NCBI RefSeq assembly: GCF_000379685.1
Contig: NZ_KB903259.1
Span: forward strand, 25,927-89,926
Direction of reading: 5' to 3'
DNA length: 64,000 nucleotides
Origin: Catelliglobosispora koreensis DSM 44566
Lineage (GTDB): Bacteria; Actinomycetota; Actinomycetes; Mycobacteriales; Micromonosporaceae
In this document: in pieces, positions 14,452-35,879 of the stretch
Position numbering within the stretch: position 1 is the stretch's first letter
Layout of the letters: each line of letters starts with the position of its first letter
Program-made: the position numbers and the translations under genes
Notes under the pieces: model-generated
Told to the model about the DNA's origin: nothing
Databases searched by the model: none
Seen by the model: the letters and a program-made list of their open reading frames with translations, nothing else

Positions 14452-15753
14452 TCAGGCTTTGCGGACCGGTGGTGGAGTCCAGCCGCCGTTGATGACTTCG
14501 GGTCTGGGTGCGTACAGGCGCATGGTGACGCCGAGTGGTCCTGGACCAGCGGGCAGCCAGTTGGATTCACGGTCCGGTCCGGGGCTTGTGCTGCGTAGGT
14601 AGAGGTCGAGTGAGCCGTCGGGATTGTAGGTCAGCGGATCCCGGTCGCCGAGGGCGAATCTGTTGATGGCGTTGGGGATCTGGAAACCCTGTGCGTCGTA
14701 CATGGTGACCGACCAGAACGCGTCGACTGGCGGGAGCCGGTCGGCGTCGAAATGCAGTACGTAGTCGTGTTCGCCGGTGAGCGGTTCCCCGTCGGCGTCG
14801 GCATCCAGGATCGGGTACACCGCGTCCTCAGGCGGGTTAGCGCCCAGCCCGATGAGCGTGACGACCGCGCGTTGCAGGTAAGAGTTACCGTACACACCGA
14901 TGGTGCTGTTGAAGATGGTCCAGCCGTTCGTTTTGGAGCCCAGCCCCGGAAGGGCTTGCTGCATCGCGGCGAGCGCATCCTTAGCCCCGGCGTCGATCGC
15001 GGCGGCATTCTGTGGGCTTGGCGGATCGAAGGGCTTACCTGGGATGATGCCCATGCCGGCGATTCGGGCCAGGATCGCGAAATCGGTTGGGTGCGGTGGG
15101 TTGTTCATCAGCACCTTTGCTGCCCGGGTGAAGAATTCCACCCCGCTCATCCGGTTGACCTGCACGAGTGCTTCCGTCGCGACATCGACATCCGGGCCGG
15201 GGATGTGCTCGACCGGCACACCAAGCGGCGTCAGGGTGAAGCCGTCCTGGATGGCATTGACCGCAGCATAATCGGCTGGGCCATTGGTCTGGGTGCGGGC
15301 GATTATCCACACATATGGTGTGGGGGCCTGAATCACGGCGTGCCCGGGTGGGAGTTCGCCGGTGAAGCCCGGTCCAGTTATCACATATTCGGTCTCGGAG
15401 GTGCCGGTGCTGCGTTTGCCGACGGTGGCGAACACGTCGGTCCACATGTCCAGCATCGGCAGCAGGTAGTACCGGTCTGCGGTGTCTGGGACGTGAAGCT
15501 TGAGCGGGCCGCGGGTCAGGTCAAGCCAGGCAACGGAATACAGCGTGTCGAAGTTGATCCGGACCACCGACCGCTCCTCAGCGGGCGGGAAGGTGCGCAT
15601 GTGATTGAACTGATTAGGCGGCCCGAAACCCGGCCGCACCCCTGCTGCCAGGCCCGTACCCTGCCCACGCGTGATATCCATCGTCACCAGCGGATACAGA
15701 TAGATGTAAGCCTCACGGCTCAGCGTTGCCAGATCATCGGCCAGCTTGCCCAC
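14452..15753 (-). CDS. DUF1254/DUF1214 domain protein
   Basis: The 433-residue protein has an N-terminal DUF1254 domain (AYIYLYPLVTMDITRGQ, then FNHMRTFPPAE and RINFDTLYSVAWLDL) and a C-terminal DUF1214 domain (PPVDAFWSVTMYDAQGF, NRFALGDRDPL, SNWLPAGPGPLGVTMRLYAP). These paired domains are widespread but have no established catalytic role. No signal peptide is visible, unlike many relatives. The start is GTG 15753, with a G-rich stretch upstream. It stands alone at the left of the stress island and no DosR-like box was found before it. Confidence 0.88.
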   Translation of the reverse strand: MGKLADDLATLSREAYIYLYPLVTMDITRGQGTGLAAGVRPGFGPPNQFNHMRTFPPAEERSVVRINFDTLYSVAWLDLTRGPLKLHVPDTADRYYLLPMLDMWTDVFATVGKRSTGTSETEYVITGPGFTGELPPGHAVIQAPTPYVWIIARTQTNGPADYAAVNAIQDGFTLTPLGVPVEHIPGPDVDVATEALVQVNRMSGVEFFTRAAKVLMNNPPHPTDFAILARIAGMGIIPGKPFDPPSPQNAAAIDAGAKDALAAMQQALPGLGSKTNGWTIFNSTIGVYGNSYLQRAVVTLIGLGANPPEDAVYPILDADADGEPLTGEHDYVLHFDADRLPPVDAFWSVTMYDAQGFQIPNAINRFALGDRDPLTYNPDGSLDLYLRSTSPGPDRESNWLPAGPGPLGVTMRLYAPRPEVINGGWTPPPVRKA

Positions 15754-15980
15754 GCCTATGCCCCCGTCATCAGCAACCGCAAGTAATCACCAACGACCTC
15801 ATGGACCCGAGGCCTGTCCACGTGAGTCTTACATGCCGCCGCGCCGCGCTAACGAGGAATCAACAAAGCTGGTGACTCCCGGGCCGCTCGTTTGGGTCGG
15901 CCGCCATACCCACAATCCGTCGTACGCAAAGCCGCTAGCCCGGATGAGACAGAAAGGAAGCCGGTGGCAGACCGGCGAGG

Positions 15981-16379
15981 TTAGGTAGCGGAAGCAGCCG
16001 TAATGATCCCCGCAACGTATACGTTGCGCGGGTTCTGAATGAGGCTGGCACCGGCACGCTGTTGTTGGGCTTGCTGGCTCGTCCCGGTGACCCGGTCAGT
16101 ACGCCGACAGCCATGGCCAGCCGGGTGGCGCATCGGCTTGTTTGGTGCGAGCGCTGGAGGCGCAGCCGAGCTCTGGGTCGCCGGTAAGGCAAGTGCCGAC
16201 GGCATGAACTGATGGTTGTTGCGGGCGCGTCGCACCTGTTCGAGGATCCAGGCACGCTCCGCCGCTATGCGCCGGCGGCGCCATGCGGGACGGCATGATG
16301 GCCGTACCTGCCCGGTGCCTGCCTCGGCCCAGGCTGCCGGTGGTGCCTGTGTCAGGGTGAGTAACCGCTTCGCATTCAT
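15981..16379 (-). CDS. Possible hypothetical protein, Arg/Ala-rich
   Basis: A 132-residue frame starts at ATG 16379 with GGAGG five bases upstream (the best argument for it). Its first half (MNAKRLLTLTQAPPAAW, later AERAWILEQVRRARNNHQ) looks protein-like, but the second half is Gln/Ala/Arg-rich and resembles no family I know, so it may be a decayed gene. It faces away from a DosR-like box at 16459-16478, 80 bases upstream of its start. Treat as unproven. Confidence 0.3.
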   Translation of the reverse strand: MNAKRLLTLTQAPPAAWAEAGTGQVRPSCRPAWRRRRIAAERAWILEQVRRARNNHQFMPSALALPATQSSAAPPALAPNKPMRHPAGHGCRRTDRVTGTSQQAQQQRAGASLIQNPRNVYVAGIITAASAT

Positions 16380-16458
16380 CGCCGCCTCCACTCAGCTAAT
16401 CGCTTGCCTCGATCATCTGCCCGGAAACCCGCTGCTAGGAGGTACCCGGACCACAACG

Positions 16459-16478
16459 GGTGGGACCTTGGACTCTTT
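16459..16478. promoter_or_regulatory. DosR/DevR-like box 1
   Basis: The core GGGACCTTGGACTC (16462-16475) matches the two half-sites of the mycobacterial DosR box (GGGACTWWAGTCCC) at 9 of 14 positions and keeps the four-base spacing. It is nearly identical to the 28649-28662 core. It lies 48 bases before the GTG at 16527. Confidence 0.55.
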
Positions 16479-16526: not shown

Positions 16527-16814
16527 GTGAAATACACCATCGAGGAACACACTGTGTCGTTACAGCCGACAGCGGCGATTCATGCCAGCGTGCCCCTGGC
16601 AGATGTGGGGTGGTGGATTGCGCATCTTGGGCAGCGCTACGACGCCTTTATCTGGTGTGAGCAAACAACTGCGGTGCACCCGCTGCACACGCAGCCCGCA
16701 CACGGCGAACTGGAGACCTACCCTCAGGCGTCTAGGCCGGCACCTCGGGCACCAGGTCAGGCGCGGGAACGACAGCGCGCGTACACGTACGATCCAGGCG
16801 CCTGTCCCTCATAG
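16527..16814 (+). CDS. Short hypothetical protein, possible truncated GyrI-like domain
   Basis: The frame has 95 residues from GTG 16527. The N-terminal 40 residues (YTIEEHTVSLQPTAAIHA, then DVGWWIAHLG) resemble the first strands of GyrI-like effector-binding domains, in which the family usually runs to about 150 residues. After about residue 55 the sequence becomes Pro/Ala/Arg-rich and domain similarity is lost, suggesting a 3' truncation or frameshift. It also overlaps the convergent methyltransferase by 58 bases, which favours decay. A DosR-like box precedes it. The GyrI assignment is tentative. Confidence 0.4.
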   Translation: MKYTIEEHTVSLQPTAAIHASVPLADVGWWIAHLGQRYDAFIWCEQTTAVHPLHTQPAHGELETYPQASRPAPRAPGQARERQRAYTYDPGACPS

Positions 16815-17371
16815 ACTGAAATCTCGATGCTGGTGAACCCCGTTCGGCTCAGGACAACCCGCAGCTGCTCTCGCGGGTAGGCGGTGAACGGAATCAGCGA
16901 GTCCAGATACCTGCGCGGCTCCAAGTCGCAGTCGCCCTCCAGCATCCCCATCAGTAACGCACCACCTGGCTTTAGCTGCTGGGAGATCGCTGACAGCATT
17001 CCCGCCACCTGGGCTCTCGGCTGTCCCTGCCAGCCGAACAAGCTCACCGCCCCGGCGAAGCGGGACCCCACGGGATGCAGGCCATCCAGATCGTGCAGGT
17101 CGCGTTCGGCGAAGATGGCGTCAGGCGCCTCATGGCGGGCGATGTCGAGCAAGACCGGTGACGGCTCAACACCTACGACCGTATACCCAGCATGGGTCAG
17201 CCTCGCAGCGGTGGCTCCCGTCCCGCAGCCCACCTCAATGACAGCAGTCGCCGGGCCGCCTGGGCCAAGCGCGGACTCAAACCAGGCAAGTTCGGCGCCA
17301 TAGCCTGGATTTGCGGCCAGTGGAGCACCGGACAGTAAGCCAGCCAGGTCCGGGCGGATATCGCTGTTCAC
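16757..17371 (-). CDS. Class I SAM-dependent methyltransferase
   Basis: The 204-residue protein has motif I VIEVGCGTGATAARL, motif II VVGVEPSPVLLDIA, the acidic loop FAERDLHDLDGL, motif IV GAVSLFGWQGQP and post-motif LKPGGALLMGMLEGD. These are the marks of a small-molecule Rossmann methyltransferase, substrate unknown. The start is GTG 17371. The mycobacterial DosR regulon includes a methyltransferase (Rv2003c), which makes the location suggestive, but I saw no box directly upstream. Its 3' end overlaps the doubtful rightward frame at 16527-16814. Confidence 0.85.
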   Translation of the reverse strand: MNSDIRPDLAGLLSGAPLAANPGYGAELAWFESALGPGGPATAVIEVGCGTGATAARLTHAGYTVVGVEPSPVLLDIARHEAPDAIFAERDLHDLDGLHPVGSRFAGAVSLFGWQGQPRAQVAGMLSAISQQLKPGGALLMGMLEGDCDLEPRRYLDSLIPFTAYPREQLRVVLSRTGFTSIEISVYEGQAPGSYVYARCRSRA

Positions 17372-17454: not shown

Positions 17455-17781
17455 CTACCAGGCGCCACCGCCAAGTTCACGTTCTGGATACAGCCCGATT
17501 CTGGCTAGCGCCTCCCGGCGTTCCTGCCACATCGCATTCTCATGTTGCTGGAGCAAGGCGTACTGGGCACGTTCCTGGTCGGCCGGCACGCTGGTAAATC
17601 CCGCAACGAAAGCGTCTGTAGAGCGCACCGCGGCGACGTAGGCGCCCGAAGCCACAACCGCTTCGGCCACTAGCGGATCTCGCTGCTCTGATTCAATCGT
17701 AAGTGCGGCTAATGGGGCCTCGTCCTCGGCCGCGGCCTTGTATTCAGCGCTCTCCTCGACCGGCCTTACCGGCTCACTCAT
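17455..17781 (-). CDS. Hypothetical protein
   Basis: This 108-residue soluble, acidic protein (MSEPVRPVEESAEYKAAAEDEAP at the start; QYALLQQHENAMWQERREALARIGLYPE near the end) has no domain I recognise. It is mostly helical. ATG 17781 has GGGAGGGAGG just upstream, which sets the start firmly; longer upstream readings are improbable. It lies between the methyltransferase and a decayed acyltransferase and is divergent from the latter. Confidence 0.65.
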   Translation of the reverse strand: MSEPVRPVEESAEYKAAAEDEAPLAALTIESEQRDPLVAEAVVASGAYVAAVRSTDAFVAGFTSVPADQERAQYALLQQHENAMWQERREALARIGLYPERELGGGAW

Positions 17782-17874
17782 GGTGCCTCCCTCCCAGCTG
17801 ATGGGATCAGTAAAGGTGATCAGGACCGCCGGGAAGAAGGGCCGATTGGCCCGGTTCATCGGTAATAACAGCCT

Positions 17875-18514: not shown

Positions 18515-18558
18515 GTTCTTGTAACCCGCACACCGCTGGCGCGCATCCTGTGACGGCA

Positions 18559-18572
18559 GGGTCTTTCGCCTC
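18559..18572. promoter_or_regulatory. Weak DosR-like site before the CapA-like gene
   Basis: GGGTCTTTCGCCTC matches the DosR core GGGACTWWAGTCCC at 10 of 14 positions. It lies about 105 bases upstream of the preferred ATG (18677). The match alone is weak; its place in the island gives it some value. Confidence 0.3.
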
Positions 18573-18676
18573 TACACCCGCATTGGGTGCCAGACGACGC
18601 TGGCTGTTATGAGGATTCTGCCCAGAACCAGGGGGCGCCGCTGGTCATCGGGCATCGTCAGCCGGCTGGTGTTTCC

Positions 18677-19777
18677 ATGCTGACAAGCAGACGGCAAGTC
18701 GCGCTGGTTTGCTGCGGCGATGTGATGACCGGCCGGGGTGTGGACCAGATCCTGGCCCATCCGGGCGACCCAGCGCTGCGTGAACCGCTGGTCAAAGACG
18801 CCCGCGTGTATGTTGGCTTGGCCGAGGAAATCAACGGTGCTATCCCGCGCCCGGTGGACCCGTGGTGGTTGTGGGGTGACGCCCTCGCGGTAATCGAAGC
18901 AACTCGGCCTGACCTGCGGCTGATCAATCTGGAGACTTCGATAACCATCAGTGACGACTTCGCCCCCGGCAAGGCCGTGCACTACCGGATGCACCCGGCC
19001 AACATAGGCTGCCTCACCGTCGCCCGTCCCGATATCTGCACTCTGGCCAACAACCACATACTGGACTTCGGTGTGCGGGGTCTGCGGGAAACGCTTACAA
19101 CGCTGGCGTCTGCTGGCATCACTGCGGTGGGTGCCGGGCTGAACTCGTGGGAAGCAGCGCACCCGGCAACGGTGCGGGCCGCAAACGGTACCCGGATGAC
19201 GGTCTTAGGTTTGGCCATGCTCTCAAGCGGCGTCCCGCAGTCATGGGCGTCCACCCTGGACCGGCCCGGTATCAATCTCCAGTCCACCACGGCGATCGCG
19301 AGGACCGTTGCGGGCATCCGAGAGGCCAAGGCTGCCAGCGACATTGTGGTGGTATCCGTCCACTGGGGATCGAACTGGGGGTACGAAATACCGCCGGATC
19401 AGATCCGGCTGGCACACGAGCTCGTTGATGCTGGCGCCGACTTCATCCACGGCCACTCCTCGCACCATCCCCGCCCGGCCGAGGTCTATCGCGGCCGGCT
19501 GATCCTTTATGGCTGTGGCGATTTCATCACCGACTACGAAGGCATAGGCGGTCATCACGAATACCGCGAAGATCTGAGACTGCTTTATCTGCCGGTGTTT
19601 GAGGCCACGGGCGAGTTCGCCGCGATGACCATCGTTGTGCTGCAAGCCCGCCAGATGCGGCTGGACCGCGCCGGGGCGAGAGATCTGCGATGGACACAGT
19701 CCACTTTGGACAGAATAAGCCGGCCCCTCGGTGCACGAATCCGTCACGGCCAGGACGGGACGCTCGACTGCCGCTAA
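18677..19777 (+). CDS. CapA-family (PGA_cap) metallophosphatase-like protein
   Basis: The 366-residue protein opens with CGDVMTGRGVDQIL and contains LRLINLETSIT, LANNHILDFGVRGLRETL, VVVSVHWGSNWGYEI and FIHGHSSHHPRPAEVYRGRLILYGCGDFI, the conserved blocks of CapA/poly-gamma-glutamate synthesis proteins with their metal-binding His/Asn/Asp residues. No signal peptide is seen, so it may be cytoplasmic. The mycobacterial Rv0574c of the DosR regulon belongs to the same family. I chose ATG 18677 because the domain begins there; GTG 18587 would add 30 residues. No convincing ribosome-binding site favours either. Confidence 0.85.
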   Translation: MLTSRRQVALVCCGDVMTGRGVDQILAHPGDPALREPLVKDARVYVGLAEEINGAIPRPVDPWWLWGDALAVIEATRPDLRLINLETSITISDDFAPGKAVHYRMHPANIGCLTVARPDICTLANNHILDFGVRGLRETLTTLASAGITAVGAGLNSWEAAHPATVRAANGTRMTVLGLAMLSSGVPQSWASTLDRPGINLQSTTAIARTVAGIREAKAASDIVVVSVHWGSNWGYEIPPDQIRLAHELVDAGADFIHGHSSHHPRPAEVYRGRLILYGCGDFITDYEGIGGHHEYREDLRLLYLPVFEATGEFAAMTIVVLQARQMRLDRAGARDLRWTQSTLDRISRPLGARIRHGQDGTLDCR

Positions 19778-19812: not shown

Positions 19813-20634
19813 TTAGGACGCATGCACGATGGCCACTGGCCCGGCGCCTTCGCGAACGAGATGCTGGCTCACCGAACCAAGCAGGAGGGCCAGGTAACCA
19901 GCGTGGCCGTGTGAGCCGACCACGGTCAGGCTGGCATGCTCAGACTCGTCGGCCATGACATATTCCGGGCTGGCACTGTGGATGGGGCGAATGACGGTCT
20001 TTAGCTGGGGAAAGGCGTGTTCCCATATCATGAGGGATGTGCTTAGTAGCCCATCGGCTTCATTTGCCAAACCCGTATAGACGTTGATGGCTACCAGCGG
20101 CACGTCCAGTGCGAGCGCTTGGCTAACCGCGAACCCTAGGGCCGCCTGCCCCGGGCGGGAGCCATCGACACCGGCGATCACTGGGCCGCCGTCTCGCCCA
20201 CCGGCGTTGACGACGATGATGCCGTGGTGGCCGTGTGCAGCGACGGTTGCCGGGATCGAGTGTGGGCTGGTGGCGTGGTTTTGCCTTTCTGGGGCCGGGC
20301 CGAGGACGGTTATCGCCGCCTGCCTGGATTCTGCGGACAACACCCGCGCGACCTCTCCTTCGCTCACCTCCGCTGTCACGGTGAGGCCGGGCCACGCTAG
20401 CCGTTGCTGCCTCGCGGTTTCCTCCGCCAAGGCGACTGCCTTTGCGCGTGCGCCCGGTTCGGCAATGGTGGTACCGCCGGCTGCGGAATGCGGCCGGTAG
20501 CCGAGAAACGGTTCCTCGTAGATGTGCAGCAGGTGCAGTTCGGCACCGTGAGCGCTGGCAAGGTGTGCCGCGTAGGTGACCGCGGAACGGGACCCGGCCG
20601 AGTCTTCAACCCCAGCAAGAATTCGCATTCCCAT
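19813..20634 (-). CDS. Tandem universal stress protein (two Usp domains)
   Basis: The 273-residue protein has two Usp domains. The first (about 1-140) starts MRILAGVEDSAGSRSAVTYA and has a degenerate ATP loop. The second (about 150-273) has VIAGVDGSRPGQAALGFA and the intact nucleotide motif VVGSHGHAGYLALLLGSVSQHLV followed by VAIVHAS. Tandem Usp proteins of this type (Rv2005c, Rv2623) bind ATP and are DosR-regulated in mycobacteria. Two ATGs, 20634 and 20628, are possible. A perfect-core DosR-like palindrome lies 55 bases upstream. Dormancy or hypoxia induction is therefore likely but inferred. Confidence 0.9.
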   Translation of the reverse strand: MGMRILAGVEDSAGSRSAVTYAAHLASAHGAELHLLHIYEEPFLGYRPHSAAGGTTIAEPGARAKAVALAEETARQQRLAWPGLTVTAEVSEGEVARVLSAESRQAAITVLGPAPERQNHATSPHSIPATVAAHGHHGIIVVNAGGRDGGPVIAGVDGSRPGQAALGFAVSQALALDVPLVAINVYTGLANEADGLLSTSLMIWEHAFPQLKTVIRPIHSASPEYVMADESEHASLTVVGSHGHAGYLALLLGSVSQHLVREGAGPVAIVHAS

Positions 20635-20689
20635 ATGCCCAACAGTGCCCGCAGGAAAGCGCGGCGGGATAGGTGGCAAGGGCCTGCGC

Positions 20690-20709
20690 GCCGGGACTTT
20701 AGTCCCGTT
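20690..20709. promoter_or_regulatory. DosR/DevR-like box 2, perfect core
   Basis: GGGACTTTAGTCCC at 20693-20706 matches every position of the DosR core GGGACTWWAGTCCC. Flanks are GCC and GTT. It lies 55 bases upstream of the leftward Usp start and just before a rightward Usp remnant. Confidence 0.8.
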
Positions 20710-20734: not shown

Positions 20735-20868
20735 TCCTTACCATCGTGGGATCTCGCGGCCTCGGCGGTTTCACCGGCCAGGCGCTTATCCACCACGCGG
20801 GCTGCCCCGTGGTCATCGCCCGGTTGCGGCGCGGTGAGCACGGCGCGTGGGCGCATCTGCCGTCCTAG
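20735..20868 (+). pseudogene. Remnant of a universal stress protein, C-terminal end
   Basis: About 40 residues on the plus strand read ILTIVGSRGLGGFTG then QALIHHAGCPVVIAR, the signature end of a Usp domain. The usual LLLGSVS segment between the two halves is missing, so there is an internal deletion, and nothing Usp-like precedes it in any frame. It is the tail of a lost gene that once ran away from the neighbouring Usp gene, with the DosR-like box between them. The frame stops at 20868. Confidence 0.65.
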
Positions 20869-20974: not shown

Positions 20975-22084
20975 CTAGAACTTGCGCTTGAGTTCGCGCG
21001 CAGCCGCCAGGCGCTGCCAAGCCATGGCGTTAGCAGCGTGCCGTGGTGTGCCGTCGGACAGGCGCATACGGTCAAGCAGCTCGGCACTGTTAGCCCGGAT
21101 CCGCCCATCGATGGTACTGAGCGCCTGGGTCTTGTCGCTGCCGCGGTATTCGGCCCAGGCACAAATAACGCCACCCGCGTTGGCCAGGAAGTCTGGCATA
21201 CAAAGGATTCCGCGTTTGTGCAAGGTAAGCTCCGCAGATTCGGTGACGGCAATATTGGCCCCGGGCAAAACCACTTTGGCGAGTACCCGGTCAGCGTTGC
21301 CATCGTGGATGACGTCAGGCTGCGCGGCCGGCACCAGAACCTCGCAGGTGAGGGTCAACAGTTCGTCGCCCGAGATGTGCTGGGCATCGGGAGTCATGGC
21401 CAGTGGCCGGCCCTGCTTCTTGGCGAGGGCCAATGCGTTGACGTCGAGACCGGCCGGGTCGGTAATGGCGCCGCTGCGATCCGACACAGCGACGACGCGG
21501 GCACCCAGGCCTTGCAGGAAACAAGCTGCGGCCCGGCCAACAGACCCGAACCCCTGCACCGCAACACGTGCACCGGCCAGGTCGAACTTGCCTGCCGCAG
21601 CCAGCGCCTGGGCGCAGGCAGCAAGCCCATAGCCGGTGGCCCCGATCTCGTCTAGCGCAAGACCACCCAACACCGCCGGAAGGCCAACGGCCCGGCCGGT
21701 CTCATCGTGTATCCACGCCATCGCGGTCTCATCGGTCCCCATGTCCGGACCAGGAATGTAGTCACGCAGGTCCCGGATGGCACAGGCGAACGCGCGGATC
21801 ACCGGCTCTTTCCGTTCCGCAGGAAAGTCTTGCGGTACAAGGATTCCCGCCTTCCCGCCACCAAACGGCAGGCCGGAAATCGCGTTCTTCAACGTCATCG
21901 CCCGGGCCAGCCGGCTAACGTCACTGGCAGTCACCTCACTGCTCATACGCACACCACCTGCGGCCGGGCCGAGTGATGTGTCGTCGATGGCGACCATCCC
22001 GCGGCAGCCCGACGGGAGCTTCAGGACGGTCATTGAAGCGGGCCCGAAGTCGTCGGCCATCCAGGTGACGTTGACAGGTTCCAT
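20975..22084 (-). CDS. Glu/Leu/Phe/Val dehydrogenase
   Basis: The 369-residue enzyme catalyses NAD(P)-dependent oxidative deamination of an amino acid. It shows the catalytic-lysine region LPFGGGKAGILVP, DYIPGPDMGTDETAMAW, the nucleotide-binding ARVAVQGFGSVGRAAACFL and the C-terminal domain-closing FLANAGGVICAWAEYRG. At this length it is nearer the Leu/Val/Phe dehydrogenases than hexameric glutamate dehydrogenase (about 450). Substrate cannot be fixed from sequence. ATG 22084 is preceded by AAGGGTG. It is divergent from a Usp gene with a DosR-like box in the shared 207-base gap. Confidence 0.9.
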   Translation of the reverse strand: MEPVNVTWMADDFGPASMTVLKLPSGCRGMVAIDDTSLGPAAGGVRMSSEVTASDVSRLARAMTLKNAISGLPFGGGKAGILVPQDFPAERKEPVIRAFACAIRDLRDYIPGPDMGTDETAMAWIHDETGRAVGLPAVLGGLALDEIGATGYGLAACAQALAAAGKFDLAGARVAVQGFGSVGRAAACFLQGLGARVVAVSDRSGAITDPAGLDVNALALAKKQGRPLAMTPDAQHISGDELLTLTCEVLVPAAQPDVIHDGNADRVLAKVVLPGANIAVTESAELTLHKRGILCMPDFLANAGGVICAWAEYRGSDKTQALSTIDGRIRANSAELLDRMRLSDGTPRHAANAMAWQRLAAARELKRKF

Positions 22085-22239
22085 GTCTTCACCCTTGCCC
22101 GCAAAATCATGCAGCGGCAGAGCACTGCGTCGCCTGCCCTGGGACCTTCGGCCTGGTCTGCCCCCGGAGTTGGCTGAGGTCAAGATCCGCGTCGGCTGTG
22201 TGGATGTTGAGGTGGGCGTGTGAAGCGGAACTCGGCAAG

Positions 22240-22259
22240 TCCGGGACTAAATGCCCCTG
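22240..22259. promoter_or_regulatory. DosR/DevR-like box 3
   Basis: TCCGGGACTAAATGCCCCTG follows the 20-bp DosR consensus with GGGACT, AA and A-T-CCC conserved; the right half is TGCCCC instead of AGTCCC. It ends 32 bases before the ATG of the rightward Usp gene and is 155 bases from the dehydrogenase start. Confidence 0.6.
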
Positions 22260-23146: not shown

Positions 23147-23356
23147 CCCGCAGCGGCCGACTGTGGCGTTTTGCCAGCACACTGCGAGAAAACAGCCGAC
23201 AATAGGTGAGTCCCGGGGCCGCAGGTTAGTCGCAGTGGAAGCCTGGCAGGGATTGACACAAATCGAGCCTATGGCCGCCCACCGAACGCCTGCGGACAGT
23301 ACGAGGCGAGGGGCCCCTGCTGGGACGCCAACGAAAGTGGGGTGTGGGAGATGGAG

Positions 23357-23647
23357 ATGCCCGTGGTGAACAACTGCGCGGCTGGGCAGTGTGCATACAA
23401 CATCGCCAAGGTGTGCCACGCACTGGCGATCACTGTCGGCAACAAAGGCCAGGCCAGCTGCGAGACGTACTTCGGGGTCGCGATGAAGGGCGGGGACCGT
23501 TCCACCCCCGGCCACGTCGGTGCCTGCAAGATGCTGGACTGCGCGCACAACGTCGATCTGGAGTGCCAGGCGCCAGGTATCTCCGTGGGCATGCAGGCAG
23601 ACCTGCCCAGCTGCGTGACCTACCAGCCCGTTCTCCAGCCCGTGTGA
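23357..23647 (+). CDS. DUF1540 double-domain cysteine-rich protein
   Basis: The 96-residue protein has two Cys-rich DUF1540 repeats. Repeat one has NCAAGQCAYN, VCHALAITVG and SCETYF; repeat two has ACKMLDCAHN, ECQAPGISVG and SCVTY. The four-Cys spacing suggests metal binding. No function is established. I chose ATG 23357 because GGGAG lies six bases upstream; ATG 23351 and GTG 23342 are in frame but too close to it. It stands in the stress island, 210 bases after the Usp gene. Confidence 0.8.
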   Translation: MPVVNNCAAGQCAYNIAKVCHALAITVGNKGQASCETYFGVAMKGGDRSTPGHVGACKMLDCAHNVDLECQAPGISVGMQADLPSCVTYQPVLQPV

Positions 23648-26273: not shown

Positions 26274-26357
26274 CGCTTCAGCCTAGTCGATATCGCTGCC
26301 CCGGCCGCCGCACACATGGAGAATCAAAGTGAGCATCCTGATCCGCCGGGGGTAGCC

Positions 26358-28373: not shown

Positions 28374-28576
28374 CACGCCTGCCCGCCAGAGGGTTTGAAT
28401 TCGATATGACAGTCAGGCCCAGGGACATACAGCGCCTCATGCGCGGTGTCGAGCCACCGGACCCAGTACGGTGGGCTGCCGTCCTCGTGCTGCAGGCGCG
28501 TCACGACGCCTACCCTGCGCGCGACGTCAAGCTGATGGCTTTCCAGCACCAGTCTGTCTCCGACTTTTGCCTTCAT
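28373..28576 (-). CDS. DUF1918 protein
   Basis: The 67-residue protein matches the DUF1918 pattern: MKAKVGDRLVLESHQLDVARRVGVV near the start, then PPYWVRWLDTAHEALYVPGPD. It is a small beta-barrel-like (SH3-type) domain of unknown function found beside stress genes in actinobacteria. ATG 28576 has AAGGGA upstream. The stop overlaps the start of the phosphoribosyltransferase fusion, indicating translational coupling. The DosR-like box at 28646-28665 lies 69 bases upstream. Confidence 0.9.
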   Translation of the reverse strand: MKAKVGDRLVLESHQLDVARRVGVVTRLQHEDGSPPYWVRWLDTAHEALYVPGPDCHIEFKPSGGQA

Positions 28577-28645: not shown

Positions 28646-28665
28646 GTAGGGACCTTGGACCCTTA
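28646..28665. promoter_or_regulatory. DosR/DevR-like box 4 between divergent genes
   Basis: The core GGGACCTTGGACCC (28649-28662) keeps GGGAC, the four-base spacer and GACCC. It is 69 bases from the leftward DUF1918 start and 86 bases from the rightward Rv2629-like start, so it could control both. Confidence 0.65.
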
Positions 28666-28751: not shown

Positions 28752-29885
28752 ATGACTACCGCATCGATCGCCCCTGCCGATTTACTTGACCTGGTACGTG
28801 ACTTGCAGCCACGTGCAAGCGTGTTCCTTCACGCAGTACCGAAAGCTGTGGACCTCGACATCGGAGAAGACCTGCGAACCCGCTGGCGGAAGCTGGCAGA
28901 GCAACTGCGTGCGCAGGGCATCGACAAACCAACCCTGGCCGTTATTGAGCAACATATCGCCGCGCTGGCTGTCACACCTGTGGCGGCGGCCGGGTACGCG
29001 TTGCTGGCCTCAGCGGGGACCATCCACTTGGCGCAGCCTATGCCTGGTGTAGTGACAGCCGACCGGGCCCGGTATTCAGCGCCGCCGGAGCTGCTGCCGC
29101 TGCTGGCCTGGTGGCAGCAACATCCCGCCTACGTATCTGTGCTTATCGATCGTGCGGGCGCCGAGGTGACGGCCGTACCCGCCGCAGCGCTCGCGGGTAA
29201 CACCGTCACGGTGACCGGGCCCGACGATGAGATCGAACGCAACGCCCCCGGCGGCTGGGCTCAGGCCCGCTACCAGCGGCGTGCGGAAGACTCGTGGCAC
29301 CACAACGCCGTGGCCGTCGCCCAGTCGGCTGTCGAAGCATTTGACGCGGTCAAAGCCGACCTGCTGGTGATCGCAGGCGATGTGCGGGCCGTCCAGATGC
29401 TCCGCGACCACCTGCACAAACACGTGCGACGCGACCTGCACGTGAGCGTGGTACGCGGCGGGCGCAGCCCAGATGGCTCGACGCAGGCACACCTGCGCGC
29501 CGTCGCCGATGCCGTCGCCGAGTATGCCAACACCCGCACCGCGGCGCTACTAGACCAAAGCACCTCCAGCCCCATCGGAGATGCCGTGGAGGGTGTGCCC
29601 GCCACACTGGCAGCGCTGGCTGAAGGTCGGCTGCAAACGCTGTTCGTCACCGGCGAACCCGCTAGCGAACGGCAGGCCTGGGCCGGGCCAGGCATCTTGT
29701 GTACCGAGCGTCCGCAAGCCACACCAGACGTGCCGCTGATCGCCGGAGGGCTGGCAGATATCGCCGTTCGGGCAGCGCTGCTCACCGGCGCCAGCGTGCA
29801 CGTGCTCACCGCCGCCCAAGCCGCGGCATTCGACGGCCACATTGGCGGGCTATGCCGCTATCGCCCGGCGCCCGCCGTGAGCTGA
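28752..29885 (+). CDS. Rv2629-like eRF1/Vms1-family (baeRF) protein
   Basis: The 377-residue protein resembles mycobacterial Rv2629, a DosR regulon member of near-equal length, placed in the bacterial/archaeal eRF1-like (Vms1) superfamily. Key block: GGWAQARYQRRAEDSWHHNAVAVAQ at about 171-195, the position of the GGQ-like catalytic loop of release factors, followed by LLVIAGDVRAVQMLRDHL and an eL30-like C-terminal domain with LIAGGLADIAVRAALLTGASVHVL. The glycine pair precedes W-A-Q, so peptidyl-tRNA hydrolysis is possible but unproven. It is divergent from DUF1918 across a DosR-like box. Confidence 0.88.
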   Translation: MTTASIAPADLLDLVRDLQPRASVFLHAVPKAVDLDIGEDLRTRWRKLAEQLRAQGIDKPTLAVIEQHIAALAVTPVAAAGYALLASAGTIHLAQPMPGVVTADRARYSAPPELLPLLAWWQQHPAYVSVLIDRAGAEVTAVPAAALAGNTVTVTGPDDEIERNAPGGWAQARYQRRAEDSWHHNAVAVAQSAVEAFDAVKADLLVIAGDVRAVQMLRDHLHKHVRRDLHVSVVRGGRSPDGSTQAHLRAVADAVAEYANTRTAALLDQSTSSPIGDAVEGVPATLAALAEGRLQTLFVTGEPASERQAWAGPGILCTERPQATPDVPLIAGGLADIAVRAALLTGASVHVLTAAQAAAFDGHIGGLCRYRPAPAVS

Positions 29886-30342
29886 TGCGTGCCGTAGACC
29901 AAAACGGGGCGAGTTACGGCGGGGTGCTGCCGGGTGGGGTCTACCGCGCCGGACCCGTTGGGCATCCCCGAACCCCGCACCCGTTGCCTGATCCCATCCG
30001 GGCGTGCGGCAAACCGCGGGCTCGCCGATCGGGCCGGGAAAGCCTGCGCGCTGGGGCCGGGAACCAGGCTAAGTCAGCGTCTAGACGCCGGCCGGCGTCG
30101 CGTACTTCCCCGGCTGGGCCGATGTGCCTTAGGCGCCGTCCGGAGCGCATCATCGTCACTACCACGCCAGCGCCGTCATATTTGACGTAGATGGTTGCGA
30201 TAACGAGCCAATCCTGTACGCCCGGGTATAGCTCACTCACGCCGCGGATCCTGTGGAGAGTCTGGGACCTGTTCGTCCGTTGTTGACCCGGTGGGCCGGG
30301 TGCTTGATATGACAATGGAGGTATCGAAGTAGGGAGTTGGTG
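29886..30342. other. Gap of 457 bases without a confident gene
   Basis: On the minus strand (about 30205-29941) a frame reads IATIYVKYDGAGVVVTMMRSG then RRLRHIGPAGEV, which looks protein-like but matches no family I know and has no clear start. An imperfect site GGGAC-N6-GTCC lies at 30264-30278, about 65 bases before the formate dehydrogenase operon. The remainder shows nothing. Confidence 0.4.
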
Positions 30343-31899
30343 GTGGGGGAGTTCGCTGCTGGGCATCGCGTGACGGAGGGCCTTCGCAGTGCTCAGGCCT
30401 GGCCTGGCGTCATCACGGCGCCGGGTGAGCAGGACCTTGCCCGTGTGCTTGAGGTGCCGGTGGCCGTCGTGCATGGGGCCGCTTCGTATTATGCGGACTT
30501 CGCGGGGCGGTGGGGCCGTCGGCATATCCGCGTTTGCACCGGAACGGCGTGCTTTGCCGCTAGCGGTGGTGGCGGGCATGTCCGTGACGTGGAGAATGCC
30601 GTGCAGGTCACGGTGGGCGGGTGTTCGGCCGACGGTGAGGTTTCGCTGCAGGGTGTGCATTGTCTTGGCTATTGCTATGCCGGCCCGGCCGCGCTCGATG
30701 GTGAAACCCCTTGCGCTGGGCCAGATTTGGCGGCCCAGCTTGCCGGGCAGGCGCCCCGGAAGGCACCGGCGGTCCCGGTGAGTGTCCTTTCGCATCCGTC
30801 GCTCATCGACTCGGCGCCGCCGTGGACGGCTTGGAGCCAGGTGCGCAGCTCGGGTGGCAAGTATCAGGTGCTGCGTGAGGTCGCGGTCGCCGGGTTGCGG
30901 GGGCGTGGTGGAGCGGGCTTTTCCACGGCGAAGAAGTGGCAGGCGGTCGCGGGGTTTCCCGGGGTGCGCTATGTGGTGGCGAATGGCGATGAGGGCGATC
31001 CGGGATCGTTTTCAGACCGTCTGCTGATGGAGCGGTACCCGGAGAAGGTTCTTGAAGGTCTTGCTCTTGCCGGTCTGGCCTGTGGGGCGAAGGAGGGCTT
31101 CGTTTACGTCCGTTCGGAGTATCCCGCCGCGTTCGTGTCGATGACGTCGGCAGTGAAGCGGGCTCGGGACTCCGGGTTCCTCACTCCAGAAGTGTTTGAG
31201 GTGATGGTGATACGTGGCGCGGGTTCCTATGTGGCTGGAGAGGAGACATCGTTGCTGCGGTCGCTGGCGGGACGGCGGGCGACCGTGACAGCCAAGCCGC
31301 CATACCCCGCGCAGCAAGGAGTCGCGGTCAATAACGTGGAGACCTTGGCCAGTGTTCCCACCATCGTCAGCGGCGGTGGCGCAGCCTATGCCCGCCTCGG
31401 GCAGGCACCGGAAACAGGAACGATCCTGGTGTGCCTCAGCGAAATGTTCCGCCGGCCGGGGGCTTACGAGGTGGAGTTGGGGTCAGTGACGGTCCGCCAG
31501 CTTGTCGAGGACCTTGGTGGAGGACTGCGAGATGGGTTGCGCTTGGCCGCGGTGCAGATCGGCGGGCCGCTTGGCGGATTCCTTGGCCTGCACCAGCTTG
31601 ACGTTCCGTTGCTCGACTCGGCCTTAACCGCCGCCGGTGCCGCCCTCGGGCATGGCGGGATCGTCGCTATCGATGAGCGGGTTTCACCTGTGGCACTGGA
31701 GCATCATCTGTGGGAGTTCGCGGCCTCAGAAAGCTGCGGCACATGTACGCCGTGCCGGGAAGGCACCGCACTGGGTGCCGCTGACCCGGCGGCTGCGGAG
31801 AAATACCTGGGCCTGATGGAAAAAGCGAGTCTGTGCGCGTTTGGCCGCGGCGTCCCGCGTGCGGTGCGCAGCTTGCGGAAAGCTCTGGGGCAGCGATGA
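30343..31899 (+). CDS. NADH-binding subunit of formate dehydrogenase (NuoE-NuoF fusion)
   Basis: The 518-residue flavoprotein passes electrons between the formate-oxidising subunit and NAD. The N-terminal thioredoxin-like [2Fe-2S] domain has Cys at about 65 and 70 (CTGTACF) and 107 and 111 (CLGYC). The NuoF part has GLRGRGGAGFSTAKKW for NADH, VVANGDEGDPGSFSDR for FMN and the 4Fe-4S site ESCGTCTPCREGT with a later Cys. FdsB/HoxF-type proteins share this build. I chose GTG 30343, with AGGGAG six bases upstream. It overlaps the next gene by ATGA. Confidence 0.93.
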   Translation: MGEFAAGHRVTEGLRSAQAWPGVITAPGEQDLARVLEVPVAVVHGAASYYADFAGRWGRRHIRVCTGTACFAASGGGGHVRDVENAVQVTVGGCSADGEVSLQGVHCLGYCYAGPAALDGETPCAGPDLAAQLAGQAPRKAPAVPVSVLSHPSLIDSAPPWTAWSQVRSSGGKYQVLREVAVAGLRGRGGAGFSTAKKWQAVAGFPGVRYVVANGDEGDPGSFSDRLLMERYPEKVLEGLALAGLACGAKEGFVYVRSEYPAAFVSMTSAVKRARDSGFLTPEVFEVMVIRGAGSYVAGEETSLLRSLAGRRATVTAKPPYPAQQGVAVNNVETLASVPTIVSGGGAAYARLGQAPETGTILVCLSEMFRRPGAYEVELGSVTVRQLVEDLGGGLRDGLRLAAVQIGGPLGGFLGLHQLDVPLLDSALTAAGAALGHGGIVAIDERVSPVALEHHLWEFAASESCGTCTPCREGTALGAADPAAAEKYLGLMEKASLCAFGRGVPRAVRSLRKALGQR

Positions 31900-34520
31900 A
31901 ACTCACCGTCGACGGGAAGCCGGTGACCGTGCCCGATGGAGCATCCATTCTGGACGCCGTCCGGATTGCCGGTCATGACGTGGCAACGGTTTGCCACGAT
32001 GACAGACTAAAACCCACCGGCGCCTGCCGTGTGTGCCTGGTCAAGACTGACCAGCAGGGGGTTGTGGCGGCGTGCGTTACGCGTGCCTCGGAGGCGCTGA
32101 ACATCAGCACCGCCGATACGCAGACCGTGGCGCTGGTCCGCCAGACACTTGAGCTCATGGTGTCACGGCTGCCCGCGTCCGCGCTGGGTATGCCGACCGA
32201 ACTGGCGCGGGCATGCCGGAAGCTGGGTGTTACCACGGCTGGTACGGCGCGAGGGCAGGGTGTCGACGAAACCCATCCGTATGTCCATCTCGACCGGGAT
32301 CTGTGTGTCGCATGTGGACGGTGTGTGCGCATGTGCGATGAGGTACAGGGTACGTTCGCGCTCACGCTGGCGGGGCGCGGCGCGCACGCCGTCGTTGCGC
32401 CTGGCCCGGGGTCGTGGGCGCAGTCAGACTGTGTGGCCTGCGGGGCATGCGTTGACTCTTGCCCGTCCGGTGCGCTCACCAGCCCGGGATCGCTGGACGA
32501 AGCATCCCGGGTGGTGACGACGACGTGTGGCTATTGCGGTGTCGGATGCTCGGTCGATGTCCACCTTGGAGGCAACGGCATCACGCAGATCACGCCGCAC
32601 CGCAACGGGCCGGTAAACCGTGGCCATGCCTGCGTCAAAGGACGATTCGCCTTCGGCTTTGTGACCTCACCTGACCGGCTGACCACACCGCTGATTCGCC
32701 GCGACGGAAGTCTGCGGCCGGCCTCGTGGGACGAGGCCATAGCCTATACGGCGCAACGGCTTCGGCAAATCATCGCCGATCACGGGCCAGACTCGGTGGC
32801 GGTCATCTCCTCGGCGCGGGCGACGAACGAAGAGAACTACCTGATGCAGAAACTGGCCCGGGTCGCCATCGGCACCAACAACATCGACAACTGCTCGCGG
32901 ATCTGCCATGCGCCGTCTGCGGCCGGGCTCACCGCATCATTCGGGCTCGCCGGGGGCACCAATGCCGCCGAAGACATCGACAAGGCGGACTGTTTCCTGA
33001 TCGTCGGCGCCAATCCCACCGAAGCGCATCCCGTCATCGGTGCCCGCATCAAGCAACGCGTCCTGGCGGGCGCCAAGCTTGTTGTGATCGACCCTCGCCG
33101 CACGGAACTCGCCCGCATGGCGGATGTGCATGTGCGCTGTGCCCCCGGAGACAACGTTGCCGTGTTCAACGGGCTGGCTCACCTGCTATGGGAGAACGGC
33201 TGGATCGACCGGGAGTTCCTTGAAACCCGTGCCGAGGGGCTTGAGGAGCTTTGTGAGCTGCTTTCCGCGTACCCCGAAAAGGAACTGCCCACAGGGGAGC
33301 TGGAGCGGGCCGCGCAACTGTATGGCACGGCGGCCTTCCCGATGATCTTCTATGGCCTTGGGGTGACCGAGCACGCGCACGGCACCGACGGTGTGCGGAC
33401 GCTGGCCAACCTCGCCATCCTGCGCGGTGCCGTCGGAACGGCCAGCGGTGGCGGGGCGAATCCCTTGCGGGGCCAGAACAATGTGCAGGGTGCTTCAGAT
33501 ATGGGTGCGCTGCCCGACTTGCTCCCGGGCTACCAGCCGGTGGCTGATGCCCAACTGCGGGCAGCAGTTGAATCGTGTTGGGGGTCAAGCATTCCGGCGA
33601 CTCCGGGGCTCCGGATTCCGCAGATGTTCGACGCGGCGATGGCCGGCCAGCTCAAGGCACTGTGGGTTTTCGGTGAGAACATCCTGCAAACTGATCCTGA
33701 CGCCGGCCACGTGAGGGCGGCCTTGAACGCCTGCGATCTCGTGATAAGCCAGGAGATCTTCCTGTCTGACACCGCGGCCGTGGCAGACGTCGTGCTGCCC
33801 GGAGCTTCCTTCCTGGAAAAAGACGGCACGTTCGTCAACTTTGACCGGCGCTTCCAGCGCGTCCGCCCGGCCCTCGCCTCAGCCCACACCGACTTCGACG
33901 TGATCCACGCAATGGCCGCAGCACTCGGAGCCGACCTCGGCTGCCGCACACCCGCCGACGCGATGGACGAATGCGCCCGCATAGCCCCCCTATTTCGCGG
34001 CGTTAGCCATGCCCGGCTCGACCATGAAGGTGCCCTGCACTGGCCTTGCCCGCACCCGGAAGCGGCAGGGGAGGCGCAGCTATACCGGGACAGGTTCGCC
34101 ACGCCGACCGGCCGGGCACGCCTAGCGGCACGCCCCTGGCTCCCCCCAGGCGAACAGCCGAGCGCGGAGTTCCCTTTCACCTTGATAACGGGAAGGCGGC
34201 TCGTGCATTACAACGCTGGCACCATGACCCGCCGCACACCCAACCTGGGCCTGCTCAGCGGCGAAACGATCGACATCCACCCTTCGGACGGCGCCAAGCT
34301 GGGCATCACCGACGGAACCATCGTGCGAATTTCGAGCCGCCGGGGCATCGTCTGGGTGCCTGCCCGGCTGACCGATCAGGTAGCACCCGGACAGGTTTTC
34401 ATGGCGTTTCACTTCCCAGACGTAGCTACAAACCTGCTCACGTCGGATTGCCGTGACGAGGTCACCTCATGCCCCGAATTCAAGGTGACGGCGGTAAGCC
34501 TGGAAGGTGATCTGGCTTAG
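31896..34520 (+). CDS. Formate dehydrogenase catalytic subunit, molybdopterin, Cys-type
   Basis: The 874-residue enzyme oxidises formate to CO2 using a Mo/W-bis-MGD cofactor. N-terminal ferredoxin domain: [2Fe-2S] (CHDDRLKPTGACRVC), His-Cys cluster, and two 4Fe-4S sets (CVACGRCVRMC and CVACGACVDSCP). The catalytic part begins with CGYCGVGC, and RICHAPSAAGL places the metal-ligand Cys at about residue 337, where E. coli FdhF has selenocysteine. The adjacent NADH subunit makes it FdsA-like, NAD-linked and soluble. No FdhD or gamma subunit gene is in the window. ATG 31896 overlaps the upstream stop. Confidence 0.94.
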   Translation: MKLTVDGKPVTVPDGASILDAVRIAGHDVATVCHDDRLKPTGACRVCLVKTDQQGVVAACVTRASEALNISTADTQTVALVRQTLELMVSRLPASALGMPTELARACRKLGVTTAGTARGQGVDETHPYVHLDRDLCVACGRCVRMCDEVQGTFALTLAGRGAHAVVAPGPGSWAQSDCVACGACVDSCPSGALTSPGSLDEASRVVTTTCGYCGVGCSVDVHLGGNGITQITPHRNGPVNRGHACVKGRFAFGFVTSPDRLTTPLIRRDGSLRPASWDEAIAYTAQRLRQIIADHGPDSVAVISSARATNEENYLMQKLARVAIGTNNIDNCSRICHAPSAAGLTASFGLAGGTNAAEDIDKADCFLIVGANPTEAHPVIGARIKQRVLAGAKLVVIDPRRTELARMADVHVRCAPGDNVAVFNGLAHLLWENGWIDREFLETRAEGLEELCELLSAYPEKELPTGELERAAQLYGTAAFPMIFYGLGVTEHAHGTDGVRTLANLAILRGAVGTASGGGANPLRGQNNVQGASDMGALPDLLPGYQPVADAQLRAAVESCWGSSIPATPGLRIPQMFDAAMAGQLKALWVFGENILQTDPDAGHVRAALNACDLVISQEIFLSDTAAVADVVLPGASFLEKDGTFVNFDRRFQRVRPALASAHTDFDVIHAMAAALGADLGCRTPADAMDECARIAPLFRGVSHARLDHEGALHWPCPHPEAAGEAQLYRDRFATPTGRARLAARPWLPPGEQPSAEFPFTLITGRRLVHYNAGTMTRRTPNLGLLSGETIDIHPSDGAKLGITDGTIVRISSRRGIVWVPARLTDQVAPGQVFMAFHFPDVATNLLTSDCRDEVTSCPEFKVTAVSLEGDLA

Positions 34521-34606
34521 CGGGTGCAGCGCTATTTCTGTGATGGGCTGGCCGCCGCCGCAAGAATAGTCATTTGGGCGGCGGCGGTCGGTAAGTGTCC
34601 CTGTTG

Positions 34607-35281
34607 CTACGGGTTGACGTGCAATTGGTTGCTGAGGCTTGTCACGCCGGGGACGTTCCAGGCGGCATGCTCGGCCTGTCGGTGTTCGGCCCAGGACCGT
34701 ACGGTGCCGTGCAGGACCAGGTGGTGATCCTTGACCTCAACGGTGATGTTGCTGGCATCAATCTGGGCATTGCGCTGGAAAGCCGATTCGATCGCTTCTT
34801 TGACACCTTTGACCGAGATCGGCTGGTCGAGAGTGATCTGGTTGTCCACGGCGACGAGTCCGCGCAGGTACCGGACGCAGCGTTCAGCGGCACGGCGCTG
34901 ATAGTCCCAGCGGACCTTGCCGGTCAGGGTGAGCACCTGATTACGGACTTTGGCCTGCACGGAGTCTGGAGGGACGTCAACGGCCGAGTCCAGGTTGGCG
35001 ACTGCGGCCTGGGCGATATCGATATCGGAGGTACCGACCGTGCCGGGCAGCCTGACGATAATCTCGTCAGCCACCGCCTTGACACCGCTGACACGCAACG
35101 CGGCCCGTTCGGCCGCCAGACGTTCAGGCAGGCTGTCGACCTCACCCGACAGGGTAATCACGCCATCGTTTGCGGACACACCAACGTGGGCGTGATTCAC
35201 CTCGGAGGTAAACGCCAGCTCGTCGAGCACGTCCGCCTGCAGATCACCATCCTTGATGGTGACGCTCTTCTGGATAGTCAT
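34607..35281 (-). CDS. Triple BON-domain protein
   Basis: This 224-residue protein consists of three BON domains, each about 65 residues (starts near 15, 85 and 155): for example ANDGVITLSGEVDSLPERLAAERAA, NQVLTLTGKVRWDYQRRAAERCV and DHHLVLHGTVRSWAEHRQAEHAA. BON domains bind phospholipid or other membrane surfaces, as in OsmY. There is no signal peptide, so it may be cytoplasmic. ATG 35281 overlaps the stop of the upstream gene by 4 bases. It is convergent with the formate dehydrogenase operon. Confidence 0.9.
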   Translation of the reverse strand: MTIQKSVTIKDGDLQADVLDELAFTSEVNHAHVGVSANDGVITLSGEVDSLPERLAAERAALRVSGVKAVADEIIVRLPGTVGTSDIDIAQAAVANLDSAVDVPPDSVQAKVRNQVLTLTGKVRWDYQRRAAERCVRYLRGLVAVDNQITLDQPISVKGVKEAIESAFQRNAQIDASNITVEVKDHHLVLHGTVRSWAEHRQAEHAAWNVPGVTSLSNQLHVNP

Positions 35282-35879
35282 ACCGTTACCGTCCTGTCCC
35301 GGCCATCGGTTCGGGCAGTGCCAAACGGCCCTTCGTGGCAGGACTTCCGCCGCTGACCACCCTCTATGTATCTGGTGGCTGCTTCGGTGAAGCAGTCGAA
35401 GAATATCCATCCTGGGCTGGAAGGTGTTGCGTAGCAAGGGATACGTTTGCCTATTATCAGGCTCGGCGGCCCGAACAGATGCTCGGCCTCGCTGCGGCGG
35501 ACATCATGGCCATCGAACTGCTTACGCAGGTCGCCATTGAGTAGATCCCACTCGGCCTCATTCAGTAGCCGGTCGACGGGCAGGTAGCCGAGCTGGTGGA
35601 ACTGTTCGGCGTATACCGACGCCACCTCTTCAACGCAGCGGCGCTCTTTACCGAATACAGCCATGAATGGTCCCGCGACGCCCAGTTTGCAAACGCGCCA
35701 AGGACTTTCGTCACTCCGTCGTAGCCGGCATCGCGGCCGTCAAGGAAACACAGGTCATCCATGAGGCCACGCGCCTGTATGTCGAAACCCTGCCCAGTCG
35801 TTGCCCACATCCCCGGCCTTGTCAAAAGCATGGGGAGCCGTTCAAGCCAGCGCTGCCGAAGATCCTCCGCTGAACGCAC
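35278..35879 (-). pseudogene. Frame-split conserved hypothetical gene
   Basis: Two frames read as one protein. The N-terminal part from GTG 35879 (SAEDLRQRWLERLPMLLTRPGMW, FLDGRDAGYDGVTKVLGAFA) switches frame near 35690, and the rest reads GVAGPF, MAVFGKERRCVEEVASVYAEQF, LLNEAEWDLLNGDL, SEAEHLFGPPSLIIGKR and GWIFFDCF to the stop at 35278. The combined product would be about 200 residues. The family is familiar from actinobacteria but unnamed. If the frame split is real the gene is broken, although a start at ATG 35664 could still make the last 128 residues. A base error is possible. The stop overlaps the BON gene start. Confidence 0.6.

Follow-up and report, generated by a model that had tools for sequence, protein, structure and literature searches.

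A probable satellite of the DosR regulon beside a tRNA-Asn gene in Catelliglobosispora koreensis

The DNA analysed here (the window) is a stretch of 64,000 nucleotides of C. koreensis DSM 44566, located on contig NZ_KB903259.1 (G000:C11:25927-89926, where G000 is the genome, 7.69 Mb in size and 99.65% complete, and C11 is the window contig). It contains an island of 21.5 kb between a tRNA-Asn gene and the gene for a large LuxR-type regulator (35923-38796), in which palindromes resembling the sites of the dormancy regulator DosR (DosR-like boxes) are concentrated. This island is likely to be a satellite of a DosR regulon, to be switched on in trans from a main dormancy cluster on contig C41 and to have grown partly by copies related to this cluster. 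The initial annotation interpreted the region as a clustered DosR-type regulon. Its observation is confirmed and its interpretation is partly supported, because boxes and a regulator are present, but the island is not the centre of the regulon.

DosR-like boxes and the regulator on C41

A 20-bp symmetric matrix was trained on sites of C41:215-345 kb. Its seeds were C41 sites near a pattern written after the window had been read, and it was then applied to other DNA. At a score of at least 11, this matrix detects 7 sites in the 21.5-kb island and none in the 42.5 kb of window flanks. It detects 6 sites in 400 kb elsewhere (20 stretches of 20 kb), 37 in C41:215-345 kb, which is the training set, and 2 in 187 kb of C41 outside this region. 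The probability of 7 or more sites at the rate of the 400-kb set is 5e-8 (Poisson), and 300 runs of a first-order Markov null of the island contain 0.54 sites on average and never more than 4. When the threshold is lowered to 9, the island and the flanks contain 9 sites and 1 site respectively, and at a threshold of 6 they contain 12 and 9. The enrichment of a DosR matrix that the initial annotation predicted is therefore found, whereas its count of four palindromes is too low at either of the two higher thresholds. The exact sequence GGGACNTTNGNCCC occurs at 7 places in the genome, all of them within the island (2) or C41:224-337 kb (5). A degenerate form of the palindrome occurs at 30 distinct places (41 rows). 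Of these, 18 fall within C41:215-337 kb and 2 within the island; the other 10 are located elsewhere. Four relatives contain 3 to 6 such places each, a comparison from which no claim is drawn because the pattern was shaped on this genome.

A box with a score of at least 11 is present within 250 bp upstream of 7 of the 19 island starts, but of none of the 30 flank genes (best score 9.9). The box centres precede the likely start codons, which were picked by eye, by 43 to 111 bp (20633 and 22083, as used for these distances, are one base off the given frames). The initial annotation described the spacing as conserved. This is true for four boxes, which are centred 63-78 bp before the likely start, but not for the others, at -43, -96 and -111. 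No box is detected upstream of the genes for Hsp20, the alcohol dehydrogenase, the methyltransferase, the DUF1254, DUF1540 and SnoaL-like proteins, and the formate dehydrogenase and NuoEF proteins. Extension of the regulon to the formate and alcohol dehydrogenases is thus not backed by boxes, nor is membership of Hsp20 and the methyltransferase, whereas the amino acid dehydrogenase does have a box. The regulon does not demonstrably include every island gene.

The genome encodes a strong DosR homologue, as the regulon interpretation requires, at C41:277126-277941. It matches Mycobacterium tuberculosis DevR (3c3w) with 245 bits, as compared to 154 bits for its next relative in the PDB. In an alignment inspected by eye, its recognition-helix region is nearly identical to that of DevR and the receiver Asp is conserved; these are the residues that we take to matter. 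When this protein is used to search its own genome, a self-match of 568 bits is followed by a response regulator with no more than 167 bits. A match of at least 200 bits is found in 31 of the 37 genomes of the family, including its own. A box with a score of 21.7 is located at C41 277254, just before the likely start of the gene. The gene at C41:277919-279631, convergent with that for the regulator, encodes a sensor of DosS/DosT type with GAF, HisKA_3 and HATPase domains. Its GAF domain matches those of DosT (185 bits) and DosS, and retains the HPPM segment, the His of which presumably binds heme. The C41 cluster, approximately 120 kb in size, contains 26 of the 36 Usp matches of the genome (between 224 and 319 kb) and 18 of the 30 strict sites. 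Because the regulator, the sensor, and most of the Usp genes and sites are located on C41, the window island is regarded as a satellite, which is probably controlled in trans as far as the contigs of this draft assembly, on which C11 and C41 are separate, can tell.

According to this interpretation, low oxygen or nitric oxide would cause the heme-GAF-type sensor to phosphorylate DosR, and phosphorylated DosR would bind to the palindromes of the island. We infer from the boxes that this binding would raise expression of the two Usp genes, the CapA-like gene, the glutamate-type dehydrogenase gene, the DUF1918/fusion operon, the Balon-like gene and perhaps the BON protein gene. The box-less genes for Hsp20, the alcohol dehydrogenase, the formate dehydrogenase and the methyltransferase may be passengers or driven otherwise. 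The island would have grown by accretion at a variable site beside the tRNA gene; the added genes, some of them with boxes, would be copies related to the main cluster, and several would have decayed since.

A second DosS-like protein is encoded at C41:260036-261685 (L034:5036-6685). Its GAF domain matches that of DosT (168 bits), its PDB matches are limited to GAF domains, and its frame stops where HATPase would follow. The H-box His is missing, as judged by eye, and a DosR-like box (score 20.0) is located near the gene start. The best relatives are found in G021 and G027 (48%), with an open frame of just 484 aa in the latter. This protein could be a decoy or a feedback part.

The region C41:215-340 kb also encodes phosphoketolase, PEP carboxykinase, a long-form hibernation-promoting-factor-like protein and nitroreductases, as identified with Pfam and NCBIfam, and an acyl-CoA ligase of ADP-forming type that scores under the NCBIfam cut-offs. 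Pyruvate formate-lyase and its activase (C41:315370-318374) both score above the curated cut-offs, and a box is located directly upstream of the lyase gene at C41 315345. Ten relatives with this enzyme were compared, and in 6 of them the top-scoring site in the 300 bp before the gene beats shuffled sequences (p<=0.024), the misses being G019, G020, G023 and G033. Judged by these sites, pyruvate formate-lyase looks like a real DosR target, and a link between this enzyme and DosR is announced nowhere in the titles and abstract openings of the literature matches listed. A DosR-driven formate loop, in which this lyase and the full-length formate dehydrogenase of the window would form one pathway, was considered and rejected, and is retained as a lead only. 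Among 61 genomes, the lyase is present in 11, a full-length formate dehydrogenase in 7 and both in 3, and this co-occurrence is not significant (one-sided Fisher p=0.10). In addition, the dehydrogenase genes have no box here and none adjacent to them in G002.

Origin of the island and alternative explanations

The gene order to the left of the tRNA-Asn gene is common to relatives, and the tRNA is matched in 19 of the 80 DnaG loci. (The DnaG encoded here shares 85% identity with that of Rhizocola hellebori, 84% with a partial one of Allorhizocola and 82-84% with those of six Catellatospora records, as expected for a likely member of the Micromonosporaceae.) To the right of the tRNA, none of the 18 readable stretches of relatives (0.4-6.1 kb) matches an island protein, although larger and farther insertions would escape this comparison. 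Open reading frames (ORFs) are present on 17 of these right sides, and proteins are common only to five Catellatospora loci and to one other pair. Locus L173 was left out because it is reversed, and L126 extends just 384 bases past the tRNA.

Codon usage separates the island from its flanks. ORFs of at least 150 aa, with a GC content at the third codon position (GC3) exceeding that at the second (GC2) by more than 0.10 and with little overlap, were compared. The codon distance of the island ORFs is 1.52 to the C41 cluster, 2.25 to the 400-kb set and 3.3-3.4 to the flanks. A C41-like codon score is obtained for 12 of 16 ORFs in the island and 3 of 24 in the flanks, a difference with p=4.9e-6 (Mann-Whitney). 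The 400-kb set reaches such a score with 67 of its 285 ORFs, and the rest of C41 with 56 of 141. The mean GC3 is 0.73 for the island, 0.79-0.81 for the flanks and 0.775 for the 400-kb set.

Three intact island genes, those for the first Usp, the fusion protein and Hsp20, have copies on C41 (Table 1), and the blastn alignment of this Usp gene with its C41 copy extends through the box at 20690. Four decayed pieces are located between intact genes: one of the fusion gene, the start of a GyrI-like gene, the end of an esterase gene and the end of a Usp gene. The stretch at 16450-16745, which contains the GyrI-like and esterase pieces, matches its own C41 with 117 bits, as compared to 67 bits for the best of 100 other genomes, when at most 7 candidates are scored for each of the 101 genomes. 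Its two parts derive from different C41 genes. A tblastx comparison of the island with C41 gave inflated statistics and was not used. A third patch, C1:841-849 kb, contains two boxes (846401 and 848131), a Usp gene and pieces of a broken sensor gene. The latter (C1:841055-841926) represent a broken copy of the second DosS-like sensor gene, share up to 90% identity with the one on C41, and are located approximately 5 kb from the Usp gene that has these boxes nearby. Another stretch, C1:417154-419090, contains a Usp gene and a phosphoribosyltransferase-hydrolase-type piece, and no box with a score of at least 11.

To judge from these similarities, the remnants, the copies and the C1 patch suggest that genes were copied inside this genome; how and in which direction they were copied we infer. 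As a tentative generalization, plausible though not favoured, the regulon would spread by copying promoter-and-gene units. The boxes would travel with the genes and seed islands (C11 and C1:841-849 kb) wherever a site permits it, tRNA-Asn being an example, after which the copies would survive, diverge or decay. C41 would be the source, and the satellites would record the growth of the regulon.

Several results weigh against the satellite interpretation. Because the seed pattern was composed after the window had been read, independence from the window holds for the sequences only and not for the motif as an idea. The genome-wide totals of the patterns are not above those of reversed controls (55+70 vs 63+75, and 22+19 vs 19+22), so that the case rests on the positions of the sites and not on their total. 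No box with a score of at least 9 is present within 250 bp of 11 of the 19 island starts, a count that includes the fusion gene, which is probably served by the DUF1918 box. The Hsp20 gene of the window has no box, whereas its C41 copy has one. Among the loci of other genomes, a box precedes 1 of the 26 Balon-like genes that could be scored (2 of 28 could not) and 2 of the 8 fusion genes. Thus 25 of 26 and 6 of 8, respectively, have no box, and the relatives compared do not generally place these two genes under DosR control. A conserved link between DosR and Balon was rejected on the basis of this one boxed locus among the 26 oriented ones. In none of the relatives is an unoccupied site seen next to the right neighbour found here, and no integrase, transposase or tRNA-end repeat is found in the scanned ORFs and the window. 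A tree of the fusion proteins groups those of the window, of its own C41 and of one genome of another family (93/98), and this grouping does not tell a local duplication from a horizontal acquisition.

It is possible, but rather doubtful, that the island is a piece of a dormancy cluster that was acquired whole by horizontal transfer at the tRNA-Asn gene and was not built from the C41 of this genome. The tRNA edge with its variable right side, the codon usage unlike that of the flanks and the other-family genome in the fusion tree are all consistent with such a transfer. So is the formate dehydrogenase, of which the best relative (62%) is found in G002, on a contig with a boxed phosphoketolase gene. 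The lack of an integrase and of an attachment repeat in the scanned ORFs and the window, however, argues against it. The remnant at 16450-16745 is closest to its own C41 among the 101 genomes and consists of parts of two different C41 genes, which likewise argues against it.

The four decayed pieces and the missing Hsp20 box might also indicate that the island is mostly a graveyard, namely a satellite that was once regulated and is now decaying with little function. This is unlikely, because the intact genes have long frames with normal codon structure and boxes with a score of at least 11 are retained at 7 of the 19 starts. It is very improbable that general stress genes came together by chance and that the palindromes serve another GerE-type regulator, with no DosR regulon involved: the large LuxR-type regulator gene adjoins the island and 11 of 19 starts lack a box, but one matrix fits the island boxes, the DosR cluster and the promoter of the dosR homologue itself, the recognition-helix region is nearly that of DevR, and the island families resemble those of known DosR regulons.

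Genes of the island and its surroundings

The features of the island are listed in Table 1. The families named in the initial annotation are all present at their places according to Pfam, except that the methyltransferase is a generic one, and the HspX-like protein is placed at the level of the Hsp20 family. The labels Rv2003c type, Rv0571c and Rv0574c agree with the methyltransferase, fusion and CapA-like proteins in domain content only. The Usp genes, which were described as tandem, are not adjacent, because the gene for the glutamate-type dehydrogenase is located between them. No regulator is recognised inside the island. The DUF1918 gene, which the initial annotation did not name, and the fusion gene likely form one operon, and the NuoE-NuoF fusion protein is likely the partner of the formate dehydrogenase. 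The region 17875-18546, between intact genes, contains open frames with no Pfam match and is possibly another remnant.

Table 1. Features of the island and of its left edge, in window coordinates
Feature	Position	Strand	Evidence or remark
tRNA-Asn(gtt), left edge of island	14096..14169	+	ARAGORN; tRNA and left synteny conserved in relatives
DUF1254/DUF1214 protein, no box	14452..15753	-	Pfam; best upstream score 2.1
Decayed phosphoribosyltransferase-hydrolase remnant, three frame pieces	15948..16295	+	matches C41_241338, residues 263-430
DosR-like box, score 11.9, before remnant	16459..16478	.	62-bp spacing same as C41 box 246981
Remnant of 5' end of GyrI-like gene (C41 246852-246919)	16540..16605	+	blastn 79% over 68; Pfam GyrI-like
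Remnant of 3' end of erythromycin-esterase-family gene (C41_232599)	16626..16738	+	blastn 83% over 114; family by Pfam
Generic SAM methyltransferase, no box	16757..17371	-	Pfam
108-aa protein without Pfam match	17455..17781	-	box centred ~63 bp upstream
DosR-like box, score 12.1	17836..17855	.	matrix; upstream of 108-aa protein gene
DosR-like box, score 13.9, upstream of CapA-like gene	18556..18575	.	matrix
CapA-like (PGA_cap) protein, likely start near 18677	18587..19777	+	Pfam 257 bits
Double Usp protein, likely start near 20634	19813..20679	-	Pfam; 70% identical to C41_242743
DosR-like box, score 21.7, strongest of island	20690..20709	.	matrix
Remnant of 3' end of Usp gene (C41_229165)	20773..20868	+	blastn 79% over 96
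Glutamate-type amino acid dehydrogenase (Glu/Leu/Phe/Val), likely start near 22084	20975..22183	-	Pfam; all NCBIfam matches under cut-offs
DosR-like box, score 12.9, upstream of glutamate-type dehydrogenase	22138..22157	.	matrix
DosR-like box, score 10.7, upstream of second Usp	22240..22259	.	matrix
Second double Usp protein, relative of TB31.7	22292..23146	+	Pfam; PDB 3cis, 2jax 134 bits
DUF1540 protein, no box	23342..23647	+	Pfam
Hsp20, no box	24648..25121	-	Pfam; 70% identical to C41_234005
Zinc alcohol dehydrogenase, no box	25236..26273	-	Pfam
SnoaL-like protein, no box	26223..26705	+	Pfam
Phosphoribosyltransferase-hydrolase fusion	27063..28376	-	Pfam; 63% identical to C41_241338
DUF1918 small protein overlapping fusion gene start	28373..28576	-	Pfam 81 bits
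DosR-like box, score 16.4, between DUF1918 operon and Balon-like gene	28646..28665	.	matrix
Balon/Rv2629-like putative ribosome hibernation factor	28752..29885	+	Pfam baeRF; PDB 8v9k; NCBIfam
NuoE-NuoF fusion, no box	30337..31899	+	Pfam
Formate dehydrogenase alpha subunit, likely start near 31896, no box	31833..34520	+	TIGR01591 757 bits vs cut-off 666
Three-BON-domain protein, likely start near 35281	34607..35437	-	Pfam
Weak DosR-like box, score 9.5, upstream of BON gene	35315..35334	.	matrix
DosR-like box, score 13.6, no recognised gene start close by	35698..35717	.	matrix

The Rv2629-like protein proposed by the initial annotation has a real link to this family through PDB 8v9k, but a distant one (43 bits), and it scores under the cut-off of the Rv2629 family NF052289 (153.1 vs 320 bits). 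It is at most 38% identical to the Balon-like proteins found in 60 relatives, and no named relative of it is confirmed. It may still work like the Rv2629 family. A Balon-like gene of another family (L080, G054:C1:4191656-4192657) has a box with a score of 17.8 at 270 bp upstream.

The formate dehydrogenase pair (30337-34520) is closest to that of G002, which is located on the same contig as a phosphoketolase gene preceded by a box. No site with a score of at least 10 is found next to the pair in G002. The placement of this pair near a box-bearing gene in G002 gives only indirect support to membership of the formate dehydrogenase in the regulon.

In the left flank of the window, a pyruvate phosphate dikinase (3585-6290) shares 64% identity with another copy encoded in the C41 cluster. 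The right flank contains an open frame of 2096 codons (43637-49927), and a glycosyl hydrolase of family 9 joined to a polysaccharide deacetylase domain is encoded at 60180-62756.

Comparison with known systems

The members of the M. tuberculosis DosR regulon are scattered over the genome, whereas their counterparts in this genome are gathered in islands, with regulator and sensor genes that converge. Both systems have a DosR/DevR-type regulator, a heme-GAF-type sensor, a TB31.7-type Usp and an Rv2629-type protein. The gain and loss of members of dormancy regulons are mostly deduced from gene lists. Because one genome combines a main cluster with satellites, boxes and decayed copies in which the box spacing is still readable, the growth of a DosR-type regulon becomes testable gene by gene. 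Our results also place a Balon-like hibernation factor and the pyruvate formate-lyase of the main cluster within likely reach of DosR outside mycobacteria.

Balon genes are often located in stress operons, according to PMC10901736, and the island protein is related to the Balon/Rv2629 hibernation factors described there by sequence, yet reaches less than half of the family cut-off. The M. tuberculosis Moco-1 island (rv3108-26c) is described in PMC5720804 as horizontally gained, hypoxia-responsive and provided with its own regulator, MoaR1. The island reported here is like Moco-1 in being a hypoxia-type genomic island joined to the dormancy programme, as predicted here from sequence, and unlike it in that no regulator is recognised in it and its boxes are DosR-like.

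A further parallel is the OsdR/OsdK cluster of Streptomyces coelicolor (SCO0167-SCO0219), a DosR-type regulon clustered around its regulator, in which, according to PMC5069765, a DosR-type regulator and a sensor are located amid many Usp genes with boxes such as AGGGACCTTCGGCCCC. The same clustering of Usp genes and boxes around the regulator is found for C41, whereas the window island has no DosR. No title on such a DosR satellite island is present among the literature matches listed for DosR islands or horizontal transfer and for a Micromonospora dormancy regulon. S. coelicolor thus already provides an example of a clustered DosR-type regulon (PMC5069765). The island reported here differs in being a second one, located on another contig at a tRNA gene, in having readable, decayed copies related to the main cluster and no DosR of its own, and in containing CapA-like, fusion, Balon-like and formate dehydrogenase genes.

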